DNA from: Amycolatopsis sacchari
Lineage (GTDB): Bacteria > Actinomycetota > Actinomycetes > Mycobacteriales > Pseudonocardiaceae
Assembly: GCF_900114035.1 (NCBI RefSeq)
Contig: NZ_FORP01000018.1
Location: 62,001-126,000 of the forward strand
DNA length: 64,000 nucleotides
Direction of reading: 5' to 3'
Every line of letters starts with the position of its first letter. Position 1 is the first letter of the stretch. The position numbers and the translations under genes are program-made. The notes beneath the pieces were generated by a model. That model worked only from the letters and a program-made list of their open reading frames with translations, was not told the origin of the DNA and did not search any database. Below, piece by piece: positions 44,616 to 48,508 of the stretch.

Positions 44616-46981
44616 TGCTCACCGAGGTCACCACGTCCGAAAGGCATGACTACCGCCTCGTGCCTCCCGCGGTGGTCCTCTGGCTCGGTGTGCTCGCCGG
44701 GCTGCTCTGGACCTGGTGGGCTGCGCTGGTCGGAGGTCTGGCGGCCGCTGGAGTCGCCGGCGCTCTGCTGTGGCGTTGGCGGCGCAGCCGGCCACAGTGG
44801 TTCTCCGGCATCGCCGCACTGCTGCTGGCAGCGGTCCTCCTGGCCGGTCCGCTGGCCGTGCGGCTGCACGACGCCCAGCACGACCCGCTGCGTGCTCTGG
44901 CCGACCGGGCGGCCCCGGCAGTGCTGCACATGGTCGCTGAGGAGCGGCCAAAGCCCGTTCAGTCGGCGGGCTATGCGGGGCAGCAGGCAGGGGCCCGGCT
45001 CGTCGTCATCCCGGCCACCGTGCGTTGGGCGAAAGCGTCCGGTGCTGCCGTCGAGACGACCGGCCGGGTGGTGCTGCTGGCGCCCGTCCAGGGCTGGGCC
45101 GGGCTGTTGCCGGGCCAGGAAGTCACGGCGGGTGGCAGGCTCGCACCGCCCCGGGACGCCGATCTCACGGTTGCCGCCGTCTACGTTCGCGGTCCGCCGA
45201 CCGATCTGGGGCCGGTTTCGTGGTGGCAGCGGGCCGCCGAAGCCACGCGGGCAGCCCTGCGGGGAGCCTGTTCCGTCCTCTCCGAGGACGCCGCGGGTCT
45301 TCTGCCGGGCCTTGTGGTCGGAGACACCAGCGGGATCTCACCCCAGGTGCAGCGGGAGTTCACCGACGCCGGGCTGTCCCACTTGACGGCGGTCAGCGGG
45401 AGCAACCTGGCGGTGGTGGCCGGGGCCGTGTTGCTGCTCCTGCGAGCACTGCGGGTCGGTCCACGGCTGTCGGCGGTGGTGGCGGGTTCCGCGCTCGTCG
45501 GTTTCGTGGTCCTCACGGGCGGCGAGCCGAGCGTCCTGCGGGCCGGTGTCATGGGCGCGGTCGCGCTGCTCGCGCTGGCACTCGGACGCCGCAGGTCGGT
45601 GCTGCCCGCGCTGGCCATCGCGGTGAGCGTCCTGGTGGTCTACGACCCAGCGATGGCCGTGAACTTCGGTTTCGCGCTGTCGGTGCTCGCCACGGCTGGG
45701 CTGGTGCTGCTCGCCCCGCGCTGGGTCGAGGCCATGAGCACGCGCGGGGTGCCGCCGGGCATCGCGGAGGGCCTGGCCGTTCCGCTCGCCGCGTTCCTGG
45801 TCACCGCGCCTGTGCTCGCGGGCATGGCGGGGCAGGTGAGCGTCGTCTCGATCGCCGCGAACGTGCTCGCCGCACCGGTGGTCGCTCCGGCGACGGTGCT
45901 GGGGGTGGTGACGGCGGTGCTGGCGACGTTCTGGCCGGCGGCGGCGCGGCTACCGGCGCTCGCGGCGGGGCCGGAGGCCCACTGGCTCCTGGCGGTCGCA
46001 CGGCACGCCTCGCGGGTACCGGGAGCGGTGCTGCCGTGGCCCGGCGGCTGGTGGGGTGGCGTGCTCGCGCTGGTTGCCGTGGGAGTGCTGGTGGTGCTGC
46101 TGCGTCGGCCCCGGCTGCGAGTGGGGCTCGCGCTCGTCCTGGTGTGCGTGCTGCTGGTGGTCGTGCCGGTCCGCGTGATCGCGCCGGGGTGGCCGCCACG
46201 GAACTGGTCGATGGTGGCCTGTGACGTGGGGCAGGGGGACGCCGAGGTGCTGTCGACGGCCGAACCCGGGCGCGCCGTGGTCGTGGACACGGGGCCCGAA
46301 CCGGGGCCGGTGGACGAATGCCTGGCGAGGCTCGGTGTCGACAGGGTTCCGCTGGTCGTGCTCAGCCACTTGCACGCCGACCACATCAGCGGCCTGGAGT
46401 CCGTCTTCGACGGCCGGTCCGTCGGGGCGGTCGCGGTGGGGCCGGGCCGGATGCCGGCGTGGGCGTGGCGCCAGGTGGCGCAGATCGCCGGGCGCCACGG
46501 GGTGCCCCTGCTCGAACTGGAACTCGGCCGTCGGCTCGACTGGCCCGGACTGTCCTTGGAGGTGATCGGACCGCGTTACCCCGGTCCGCAACAGGAAGGA
46601 GATGACGCGGACGGCACGAACATCAACAACGCCTCGGTCGTGCTGCGGGCTGTCACGCCCGCCGGGCGCGTCCTGCTGACCGGCGACGTGGAGCTGCTGG
46701 CTCAGGGGGATCTGCTCGCCGCGGGCACCGACCTGCACGCGGACGTGCTCAAGGTGCCCCACCACGGCAGCAGGTTCTCGTTGCCGGCATTCCTCTCGGC
46801 CGTCTCGCCGCGGCTTGCGCTCATCAGTGTCGGCGCGGGGAACAGCTACGGCCACCCGAGCAGGTCCACAGTGGACTCACTCGTCGCGGGTGGTGCGCTG
46901 GTCGCCCGCACCGACACCGACGGCGACGCTGCCGTGGTGACGGACAACGGAGGATTGGCGGTGGTGCGCAGGGGAAAGTGA
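44615..46981 (+). CDS. comEC: ComEC/Rec2 family competence protein
   Basis: 788 residues. DNA-uptake channel: an N-terminal DUF4131 segment (helices 1-3), the Competence domain with LPGLVVGDTSGISPQVQREFTDAGLSHLTAVSGSNLAVVAGA and further helices, then a metallo-beta-lactamase domain with SHLHADHISGLE near 585 and LKVPHHGSRFS. The MBL metal ligands are intact, suggesting nuclease activity on the non-transported strand. ATG 44615 shares one base with the comEA stop; GTG 44612 is equally possible. Confidence 0.93.
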   Translation: MLTEVTTSERHDYRLVPPAVVLWLGVLAGLLWTWWAALVGGLAAAGVAGALLWRWRRSRPQWFSGIAALLLAAVLLAGPLAVRLHDAQHDPLRALADRAAPAVLHMVAEERPKPVQSAGYAGQQAGARLVVIPATVRWAKASGAAVETTGRVVLLAPVQGWAGLLPGQEVTAGGRLAPPRDADLTVAAVYVRGPPTDLGPVSWWQRAAEATRAALRGACSVLSEDAAGLLPGLVVGDTSGISPQVQREFTDAGLSHLTAVSGSNLAVVAGAVLLLLRALRVGPRLSAVVAGSALVGFVVLTGGEPSVLRAGVMGAVALLALALGRRRSVLPALAIAVSVLVVYDPAMAVNFGFALSVLATAGLVLLAPRWVEAMSTRGVPPGIAEGLAVPLAAFLVTAPVLAGMAGQVSVVSIAANVLAAPVVAPATVLGVVTAVLATFWPAAARLPALAAGPEAHWLLAVARHASRVPGAVLPWPGGWWGGVLALVAVGVLVVLLRRPRLRVGLALVLVCVLLVVVPVRVIAPGWPPRNWSMVACDVGQGDAEVLSTAEPGRAVVVDTGPEPGPVDECLARLGVDRVPLVVLSHLHADHISGLESVFDGRSVGAVAVGPGRMPAWAWRQVAQIAGRHGVPLLELELGRRLDWPGLSLEVIGPRYPGPQQEGDDADGTNINNASVVLRAVTPAGRVLLTGDVELLAQGDLLAAGTDLHADVLKVPHHGSRFSLPAFLSAVSPRLALISVGAGNSYGHPSRSTVDSLVAGGALVARTDTDGDAAVVTDNGGLAVVRRGK

Positions 46982-46983
46982 AC

Positions 46984-48249
46984 TCAGCTCTGCAGAGCGG
47001 CACGGACCGCGTCGGCCGACGGCGGGACCGTCGCCTTAGGACCGATCCGGCCTTCGACGGCGTCGAGCGTCTTCAGGCCGTCACCGGTGATGAGCAGGAC
47101 GGTCTCCGCCTCGGGGTCGAGCTTGCCGGTCTCGATGAGCTTCTTCGTCGTCGCGACGGTGACCCCGCCCGCGGTCTCGGTGAAGATGCCTTCGGTGCGG
47201 GCCAGCAGCCGGATGCCCTCGACGACCTCCTCGTCGGAGACGTCCTCGATCGCGCCGCCGGTGCGGTTGACGGTGTCGAGCACGTAGGGGCCGTCCGCCG
47301 GGTTGCCGATCGCGAGGGAGCGGGCAATGGTGTTCGGCTTCACCGGCTGGACCACGTCGTGGCCGTTGCGGAACGCCGTCGAAACGGGGGAGCAGCCGGT
47401 GGCCTGGGCGCCGAAGACCTTGTACGGGGTCTCCTCGACCAGGCCGAGCGACCCCAGCTCGCGGAAGCCCTTGTCCACCTTGGTGAGCTGGGAGCCCGAG
47501 GCGATCGGCACGACGATCTGCTCCGGCAGCCGCCAGCCCAGCTGCTCGGCGACCTCGAAGGCCAGCGTCTTCGAACCCTCCGAGTAGTACGGCCGGACGT
47601 TGACGTTGACGAACGCCCACGTCTCGTTCTCGGCGGCGAGCTGCGTCGCGAGCCGGTTGACGTCGTCGTAGTTGCCGTCGACCGCGATGAGGTTGCCGTC
47701 GTAGACGGCGGTGGTGAGGATCTTGGCGCGTTCGAGGGAGGAGGGGATCAGCACGACGGACTGCCAGCCCGCGCGGGCTGCGGCCGCAGCGACGGCGTTG
47801 GCCAGGTTGCCGGTCGACGGGCAGGCGAGGGTGTCGAACCCGAACTCGCGGGCCGCGGCCAGCGCGACGGCGACGACGCGGTCCTTGAACGAGTGGGTGG
47901 GGTTGCCGGTGTCGTCCTTGACCCAGACCCGCTTGAGGCCCAAGGCCTTCGCGAGCCGGTCGGCGCGCACCAGCCGCGTACAGCCCGGCTCGGTGTTGGG
48001 GATCTCCTCGACGTTCGAGGGCACCGGCAGCAGCTTCTTGTAGCGCCAGATGTTGCGGGGGCCGGACTCGATGTCCTCGCGGCGGACCCGGCCGAAGTCG
48101 TAGGCGACCTCGAGGGGCGAGAAGTCCTCCGCGGAGACGAACTCGGGCGCGAGCGGCTGGCGGTGGCCCTCCTCCTTCGACACCAGCTCCACGGCGGGGC
48201 CGAGGTCGACGGTGCGCTGGGTGGAGGTCGAGCTGAGGGCTGCGGTCAT
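46984..48249 (-). CDS. Threonine synthase-like PLP enzyme under SAM riboswitch control
   Basis: 421 residues. Fold-type II PLP enzyme: lysine Schiff base Lys122 in GNPTHSFKDR, the phosphate cup SGSQ- and STGNLANA-type segments, and CSPVSTAFRNG. It looks like threonine synthase (acts on O-phosphohomoserine) but is longer than mycobacterial ThrC and is not with thrA/thrB. A SAM-I riboswitch precedes it, a methionine-pathway signal. From memory, Streptomyces has a related enzyme (MetM) making homocysteine from O-phosphohomoserine with a sulfur-carrier protein; this gene may be its counterpart. ATG 48249 has AAAGGA 8 nt upstream. Its stop is 2 nt from the comEC stop. Confidence 0.85.
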   Translation of the reverse strand: MTAALSSTSTQRTVDLGPAVELVSKEEGHRQPLAPEFVSAEDFSPLEVAYDFGRVRREDIESGPRNIWRYKKLLPVPSNVEEIPNTEPGCTRLVRADRLAKALGLKRVWVKDDTGNPTHSFKDRVVAVALAAAREFGFDTLACPSTGNLANAVAAAAARAGWQSVVLIPSSLERAKILTTAVYDGNLIAVDGNYDDVNRLATQLAAENETWAFVNVNVRPYYSEGSKTLAFEVAEQLGWRLPEQIVVPIASGSQLTKVDKGFRELGSLGLVEETPYKVFGAQATGCSPVSTAFRNGHDVVQPVKPNTIARSLAIGNPADGPYVLDTVNRTGGAIEDVSDEEVVEGIRLLARTEGIFTETAGGVTVATTKKLIETGKLDPEAETVLLITGDGLKTLDAVEGRIGPKATVPPSADAVRAALQS

Positions 48250-48264
48250 CGCGAGGTTCCTTTC

Positions 48265-48393
48265 CTCATCTGTCCCGCTGACGCGGGCCGGAATTGGCAC
48301 CGTGGTCGTCAGCTACCTCGCGGAATCGAGATGACAGGCTGACGCCGGTTGCCGGGGCTTCATCGGGCCGTTCCCTCTGCCCCTCTGGATGAG
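48265..48393 (-). promoter_or_regulatory. SAM-I (S-box) riboswitch
   Basis: Read on the minus strand: P1 5' strand CTCATC (48393-48388), then CAGAGGGGCAGAGGGAACGG, CCCGATGAAGCCCCGGCAACC (the S-box core), a long P3 (GTCAGC...GCTGAC), GGTGCCAATTCC, a P4 hairpin CCCGC-GTCA-GCGGG, and P1 3' strand GATGAG (48270-48265). All parts are in the S-box order; P4 argues against the SAM-IV class. P1 ends one base before the AAAGGA ribosome site and there is no terminator hairpin, so control is probably translational. Confidence 0.9.
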
Positions 48394-48508
48394 CGGTATT
48401 CGGTTGTCAGGGCCGCGGCGCGTGCAACGCGGCCGTTACAAACATACGACACCGTCGGCTGCCGACGCCATGCCCCTGCGGGCTTCGTCACCGTGGCAGG
48501 ATCGTGAG

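Follow-up and report, generated by a model that had tools for sequence, protein, structure and literature searches.

Genes and features at the locus

The window, by which we mean the whole 64 kb stretch of DNA analysed here, carries on its minus strand a gene for a PLP-dependent enzyme behind a SAM-I aptamer (Table 1). The full reading frame (46984-48300, minus strand) has 438 codons from a GTG, but the likely start is the ATG at 48249, which has an AAGGA before it. Upstream there is a divergent ORF for DNA polymerase III delta, whose longest frame starts at 48389, within the 5′ part of the aptamer; its true start probably lies later than this position. Downstream, a convergent comEC-like ORF ends at 46981. 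The metM-like gene, as we call it below, therefore stands alone, and neither hom nor thrB is found among its neighbours. The closest named relatives of the locus (95% in the best segment) come from A. acididurans and A. alkalitolerans.

Table 1. Features of the metM-like gene and its leader (window coordinates)
Feature	Position	Strand	Details
SAM-I (S-box) aptamer, complete	48263..48395	minus	RF00162
P1 3′ strand	48270-48263	minus	can also pair with CCTCG
Shine-Dalgarno-like AAGGA	48262-48258	minus	precedes ATG at 48249
CCTCG	48256-48252	minus	able to pair with the same P1 strand
metM-like gene, 421 aa, PLP fold type II enzyme	46984..48249	minus	PALP, clade, residues
Zinc-ribbon remnant	48124..48180	minus	cysteines 24, 27, 39, 42 of relatives are S, E, S, D
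Codon of Lys122 (SFKDR), predicted PLP lysine	47884..47886	minus	invariant in alignments
Codons R219 to Y222	47584..47595	minus	N and R are the end residues in ThrC

The SAM-I leader

An earlier note on this DNA, made from the sequence without database searches, had placed a SAM-I aptamer in front of a threonine-synthase-like gene and had suggested a search against the SAM clan of Rfam. That search returned a full-length match to RF00162 (model positions 1-108, 81.4 bits, gathering score 44.4, E 1.2e-17), which extends 2 nt past the end given in the note. It is also the sole above-threshold Rfam match of cmscan across the whole window.

The aptamer ends 13 nt from the ATG. In 60 Pseudonocardiaceae leaders, P1 forms 6 of 8 standard pairs in 57 cases and 7 of 8 in the other 3, and in every leader the stretch from the P1 3′ strand to the start codon contains a Shine-Dalgarno match of 4 or 5 nt. 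No terminator was found on the coding strand downstream of the aptamer: of three terminator-like sites, two precede the aptamer and the third is on the opposite strand. Given this result, and with the 3′ strand of P1 overlapping or directly adjoining the ribosome-binding site, control at the start of translation, by way of ribosome access, is the most likely mode of action. Folding of the window leader revealed no excess stability (z -0.75).

An alternative helix, UGAGG/CCUCG, shares the P1 strand in 48 of the 60 Pseudonocardiaceae leaders, and the two helices are mutually exclusive. A similar CCUC occurs downstream in 6 out of 6 leaders of the family f4, presumably Streptomyces. As the UGAGG/CCUCG helix also touches the ribosome-binding site, the sign of the switch was taken from the behaviour of the SAM-I family, from which we infer that SAM binding would turn the metM-like gene off. 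This conserved helix (48252-48270 in the window; leaders of L025-L090) competes with P1 and may have a part in switching.

The source genome has a second SAM-I element (59.3 bits, L002 1501-1592, contig C26), followed at 1754-2779 by an ABC ATPase with a NIL domain, a type that we take to belong to methionine importers; the gene behind this element is thus likely to serve methionine import. Rfam searches of nine other loci from the same genome, some with methionine or cysteine genes, found nothing beyond this second element.

Separation from canonical threonine synthase

The window protein contains a PALP domain (233 bits), and its Lys122 is predicted from the fold to be the lysine that holds PLP. 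It also scores 287 bits with the threonine synthase profile TIGR00260 (cut-off 167.1), close to the 294.5 bits of the genome's own ThrC. Since both proteins exceed the cut-off, the profile does not separate these two. Among solved structures, the AlphaFold model (40 sequences, mean pLDDT 83.8) comes closest in fold to threonine synthases, and the protein shares fold and PLP lysine with the ThrC structures 2d1f, 1uim, 1v7c and 6nmx. It differs from them in an extra N-terminal domain, visible both in the alignment and in the model.

The profile score and the nearest folds would both suit a second threonine synthase that is repressed by SAM, for example in order to save carbon, and that is linked to methionine indirectly. 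So would a finding reported in PMC12172450: a relative from the cyanobacterium Microcystis, with 51.6% identity to S. albulus MetM, acted as a threonine synthase in vitro, and the authors doubt that it fills the role of a full MetM in vivo. We consider a second threonine synthase very unlikely, as several lines of evidence speak against it.

First, the source genome already has a canonical ThrC (L004), encoded on contig C51 in the order hom-thrC-thrB (hom and thrB were named by eye from translations) and 36% identical to the window protein. This is the second thrC for which the earlier note had advised looking; the idea that the gene under study is the sole threonine synthase gene of the genome was rejected on this ground. 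Two further remarks of the note hold as well, namely that the gene lies apart from thrA/thrB and that its product is longer than mycobacterial ThrC (421 aa vs 360 residues in the M. tuberculosis PDB chain).

Second, the tree that the note had also called for places the window protein among the metM-type rows and the ThrC of the genome on the opposite side of a branch with 100/100 support. The tree has 88 rows, of which 66 are metM-type (18 of 61 Pseudonocardiaceae loci, 4 of 6 from f4 and 44 of 44 others) and 22 ThrC-type. The MetM of S. albulus is represented in it by stand-ins from genomes of the same class that have SAM-I, metM and a carrier gene in a row. Four ThrC-type sequences (L005, L139, L267 and L269) form long branches of unsure placement, and the ThrC-type locus L268 has no row.

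Third, the residues of the pocket differ. Leaving out L131, L005, L139, L267 and L269, we found 26 positions that split 65 metM rows from 18 ThrC rows, and at 26 out of 26 the window protein has the metM residue. Among them, R219 and Y222 are present in all 65 metM rows, which argues against a second threonine synthase, whereas N and R occupy these places in all 18 ThrC rows. N217, R219 and Y222 of the window protein align with S155, N157 and R160 of T. thermophilus ThrC (numbers counted from the alignment), residues that we assume to bind phosphate. In place of the GNA loop of ThrC, which presumably binds the phosphate of PLP, the window protein has A250-S251-G252. At the position of K116 of the T. 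thermophilus enzyme it retains a lysine, K176. The pocket residues of ThrC were thus not found in the window protein, and its predicted substrate pocket is altered relative to ThrC.

A third threonine-synthase-like PLP enzyme of the source genome, encoded on contig C67 (L005 1423-2526; 367 aa), scores 99 bits with TIGR00260, below the cut-off.

Distribution of the switch and the gene

To the above evidence the distribution of the riboswitch can be added. In a sample of 148 genomes of Actinomycetota, each at least 95% complete, a metM-type row was found in 51 (E at most 5e-116). RF00162 lies no more than 500 nt upstream on the same strand in 37 of these 51 rows, one of the 37 (G149) being cut by a contig edge and below the gathering score. 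The other 14 rows have no upstream SAM-I; two of them (G076 and G190) are at a contig edge, and the misses may include weak elements, because the riboswitch search used strict filters. Among the matches listed, SAM-I was detected within 3 kb of 0 of the 99 ThrC-type rows, which again speaks against a second threonine synthase.

Within the Pseudonocardiaceae the association is complete: at a threshold of 1e-60, metM was found in all 60 genomes sampled, and in 60 out of 60 the primary copy has SAM-I immediately before it. The same holds for 16 out of 16 named loci that were tested, drawn from a set of 80 (one of them titled Nakamurella and a few assigned only to order or class). With the switch present throughout the family genomes and the tested loci, its association with the gene is not due to chance.

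At least one further homologue was found at 1e-20 in 50 of the 51 metM genomes. The one exception, G144 (L127), has no second homologue at this threshold among the best 12 of 22 candidates; if that lack is real, MetM might also make threonine there. One genome (G048) has an extra metM copy, L091, which is 65% identical, keeps the zinc ribbon and groups with the f4 clade. Its SAM-I (1687-1776) lies about 730 nt upstream of the extra copy (about 2510 onward), with another ORF between them that resembles an acetyltransferase by eye.

The association of SAM-I with a threonine-synthase-like gene is itself already published. In S. lividans TK24, Table 3 of PMC8079986 gives an RNA-seq-validated SAM-I (RF00162) before SLIV_16930-SLIV_16925, labelled as threonine biosynthesis. 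The likeness to the window lies in an RF00162 leader before genes with that label; the differences are that two genes follow there and one here, and that the label in the table is threonine, not methionine. SLIV_16930 and SLIV_16925 are putatively metM and metO. For S. albulus, PMC12172450 states that metM is preceded by a SAM riboswitch. That source, the one among the matches listed that we know to discuss the enzyme, presents MetM as a homocysteine synthase of Streptomyces that uses O-phosphohomoserine, and attributes it to Hasebe et al. 2024 (Appl Environ Microbiol 90:e01247-24). No paper that joins Amycolatopsis, a SAM riboswitch and methionine was found in a literature search that had most subscription papers outside its reach.

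The sulfur carrier

In Streptomyces, MetO is reported to be a thiocarboxylated sulfur carrier encoded downstream of metM. In our comparison, a ThiS-family carrier gene lies just downstream of metM in 6 of 6 f4 loci and in 31 of 44 others, that is, in 37 out of 50; the f4 carrier has about 91 residues and ends in PAVAGG. By contrast, no carrier gene lies beside metM in any of the 61 Pseudonocardiaceae loci (flanks of about 1.5-2.5 kb, shorter at contig ends). Likewise, a search of up to 4 kb around metM found a metO-like gene in 0 of the 80 named loci, while the positive control detected 7 of 7. The window itself holds no metM-metO pair; the comEC-like ORF sits downstream instead.

The earlier note had advised a search for ThiS/MoaD-like carriers elsewhere in the genome. 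The source genome has three ThiS-family matches, namely CysO, ThiS and a MoaD-like protein, and six f4 genomes have four each. CysO is encoded in mec-cysO-cysM, as it is in all 30 CysO loci compared (29 from Pseudonocardiaceae and 1 from f4). It is 57% identical to an f4 metO product and carries the same PAVAGG, with two extra residues after it. In a carrier tree of 30 cysO and 35 metO rows, which has few columns and from which two of the 37 metO loci are missing because the search pattern passed over them, the CysO of the source genome groups with f4 CysO (98/91) and adjoins the f4 metO clade. We therefore rejected the idea that metO had merely been relocated in the source genome, where the one CysO/MetO-like protein is encoded in mec-cysO-cysM and clusters with f4 CysO, not with f4 metO. 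A fourth ThiS-family match does occur in 17 of 43 Pseudonocardiaceae genomes, and six matches in one genome; there the extra match may be a relocated metO.

In many CysO proteins of the Pseudonocardiaceae (L009, L221-L248), two residues follow the GG (AR, MR or SR), whereas others end in GG. The former would therefore need trimming before activation.

The second difference from the two-gene systems lies in the N-terminal zinc ribbon that other MetM proteins have. Its CxxC..CxxC cysteines are kept in 42 of the 80 named loci and absent from 38, and they are lost in the clade of the window protein (S24, E27, S39 and D42). Ribbon-bearing named loci, however, are likewise without a nearby metO. The losses of metO and of the ribbon were thus separate events, and metO was probably lost first.

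Other routes to homocysteine

The source genome encodes MetX (514 bits, NF047917) and MetY (826 bits, NF005872), both over the cut-off and adjacent on contig C58; neither this pair nor the lack of metO beside metM in Pseudonocardiaceae had been noticed in the earlier note. MetM as the only route to homocysteine was thus rejected for this genome, and it is not required there by elimination, because MetX-MetY is also present. A strong cystathionine gamma-synthase (657 bits) was found as well.

The relatives offer a different picture. At 1e-40, MetX had no match in 16 of the 43 Pseudonocardiaceae genomes tested; absence here refers to this threshold, since the curated cut-off of the model was passed by no surveyed genome or control, and in some genomes the best 33 candidates were scored. 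The HTS (MetA) and HcyBio domains were found in 0 of 21 Pseudonocardiaceae genomes tested, including all 16 that lack MetX, while among 14 control genomes HTS was found in 8 and HcyBio in 3. All 16 MetX-less genomes have metM and a strong ThiS-family match of the length of CysO, and the mec-cysO-cysM context was seen in 10 out of 10 examined. These results allow us to assume that MetM probably works as an orphan, as 16 of 43 genomes keep metM without the three other entry routes that were searched. The same retention is hard to reconcile with a second threonine synthase.

In such MetX-less strains, MetM would make homocysteine without a neighbouring MetO, unless the strains require methionine or use another route, such as cystathionine gamma-synthase with O-phosphohomoserine. 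Plants use cystathionine gamma-synthase in this way, and the strong match in the source genome agrees with a plant-like route that would make MetM dispensable in the MetX-less relatives. It would leave the switch and the retention of the gene in 60 out of 60 genomes unexplained, and we regard it as highly improbable.

Proposed function

Taken together, the clade, the switch and the context agree with the reading of the earlier note, which had named MetM and favoured a methionine gene; PMC12172450 backs the mention of MetM. On sequence evidence, the gene very probably encodes MetM, a predicted O-phosphohomoserine-dependent homocysteine synthase. With the MetM-MetO system of Streptomyces, as far as that source describes it, the locus shares a threonine-synthase homologue behind a SAM riboswitch, and the window protein falls into one clade with the f4 enzymes linked to SAM-I and a carrier. 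It departs from that system in the lack of an adjacent metO in Pseudonocardiaceae loci, in the lost ribbon cysteines of its clade and in the additional MetX-MetY of the source genome. On the grounds of clade, switch and gene context the enzyme would be a MetM, though one outside a metM-metO two-gene system. From ThrC it is set apart by the 26 clade-separating positions, by the lack of hom and thrB as neighbours and by the SAM-I leader.

According to this proposal, MetM would take O-phosphohomoserine from the threonine pathway and swap its phosphate for sulfur, which would yield homocysteine, the precursor of methionine. When SAM is high, the SAM-I element in the leader would lower metM expression, most likely by controlling the access of ribosomes, and O-phosphohomoserine would be left to the separate ThrC for threonine. 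SAM control of MetM makes sense in these terms, since shutting MetM leaves the substrate to ThrC.

The sulfur donor is a matter of its own. Elsewhere in actinobacteria it would be the small carrier MetO, usually encoded beside metM; in Pseudonocardiaceae, CysO from mec-cysO-cysM would be the first candidate. The CysO of the source genome matches chain B of PDB 4n6e, a ThiS/MoaD chain, with 169 bits, and we take this entry to be the BexX complex.

Precedent comes from Amycolatopsis orientalis, whose BexX borrows the sulfur carriers of primary metabolism, as PMC4784017 and PMC11323500 state. With this borrowing and the match to the 4n6e chain, CysO is the natural donor to propose. The CysO-CysM system of mycobacteria and BexX (PDB 3dwg, 4n6e) have in common with this scheme that sulfur is passed from a ThiS/MoaD-like carrier; they differ in that the use of CysO by MetM is a proposal. 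We tentatively suggest, at a little under even chances, that Pseudonocardiaceae dropped MetO and that CysO feeds both CysM and MetM, with sulfur for cysteine as well as for methionine.

A MetM that takes its sulfur from free sulfide or from a carrier other than CysO, such as ThiS or the MoaD-like protein, is possible but on balance doubtful. Under such a scheme the missing metO and the lost ribbon would mark a change of donor, and it would suit the complete lack of adjacent carriers in the 61 Pseudonocardiaceae loci, the total of only three ThiS-family matches in the source genome and the missing cysteines of the window's clade. With no nearby metO and the ribbon gone, the reaction may indeed differ from that of MetM-MetO. 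Nevertheless, the similarity of CysO to the f4 metO product, down to the shared PAVAGG, argues for CysO, and the ribbon-bearing loci without a nearby metO indicate that the two losses were different events.

The assignment to MetM gives a methionine label to a gene that the threonine synthase profile claims, throughout a large family of antibiotic producers in which SAM supply matters. The family is a natural setting in which to test how a sulfur enzyme that depends on a carrier manages when its partner is missing. If CysO is shared, MetM would be the sole homocysteine route known to us in about a third (16/43) of the sampled genomes, and the ribbonless clade, which includes Amycolatopsis, would show an enzyme adapting to a new carrier. 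A CysO that supplied cysteine and methionine alike would extend the sharing of carriers to two core amino-acid pathways, and the genera that lack MetX and keep MetM make this directly testable.
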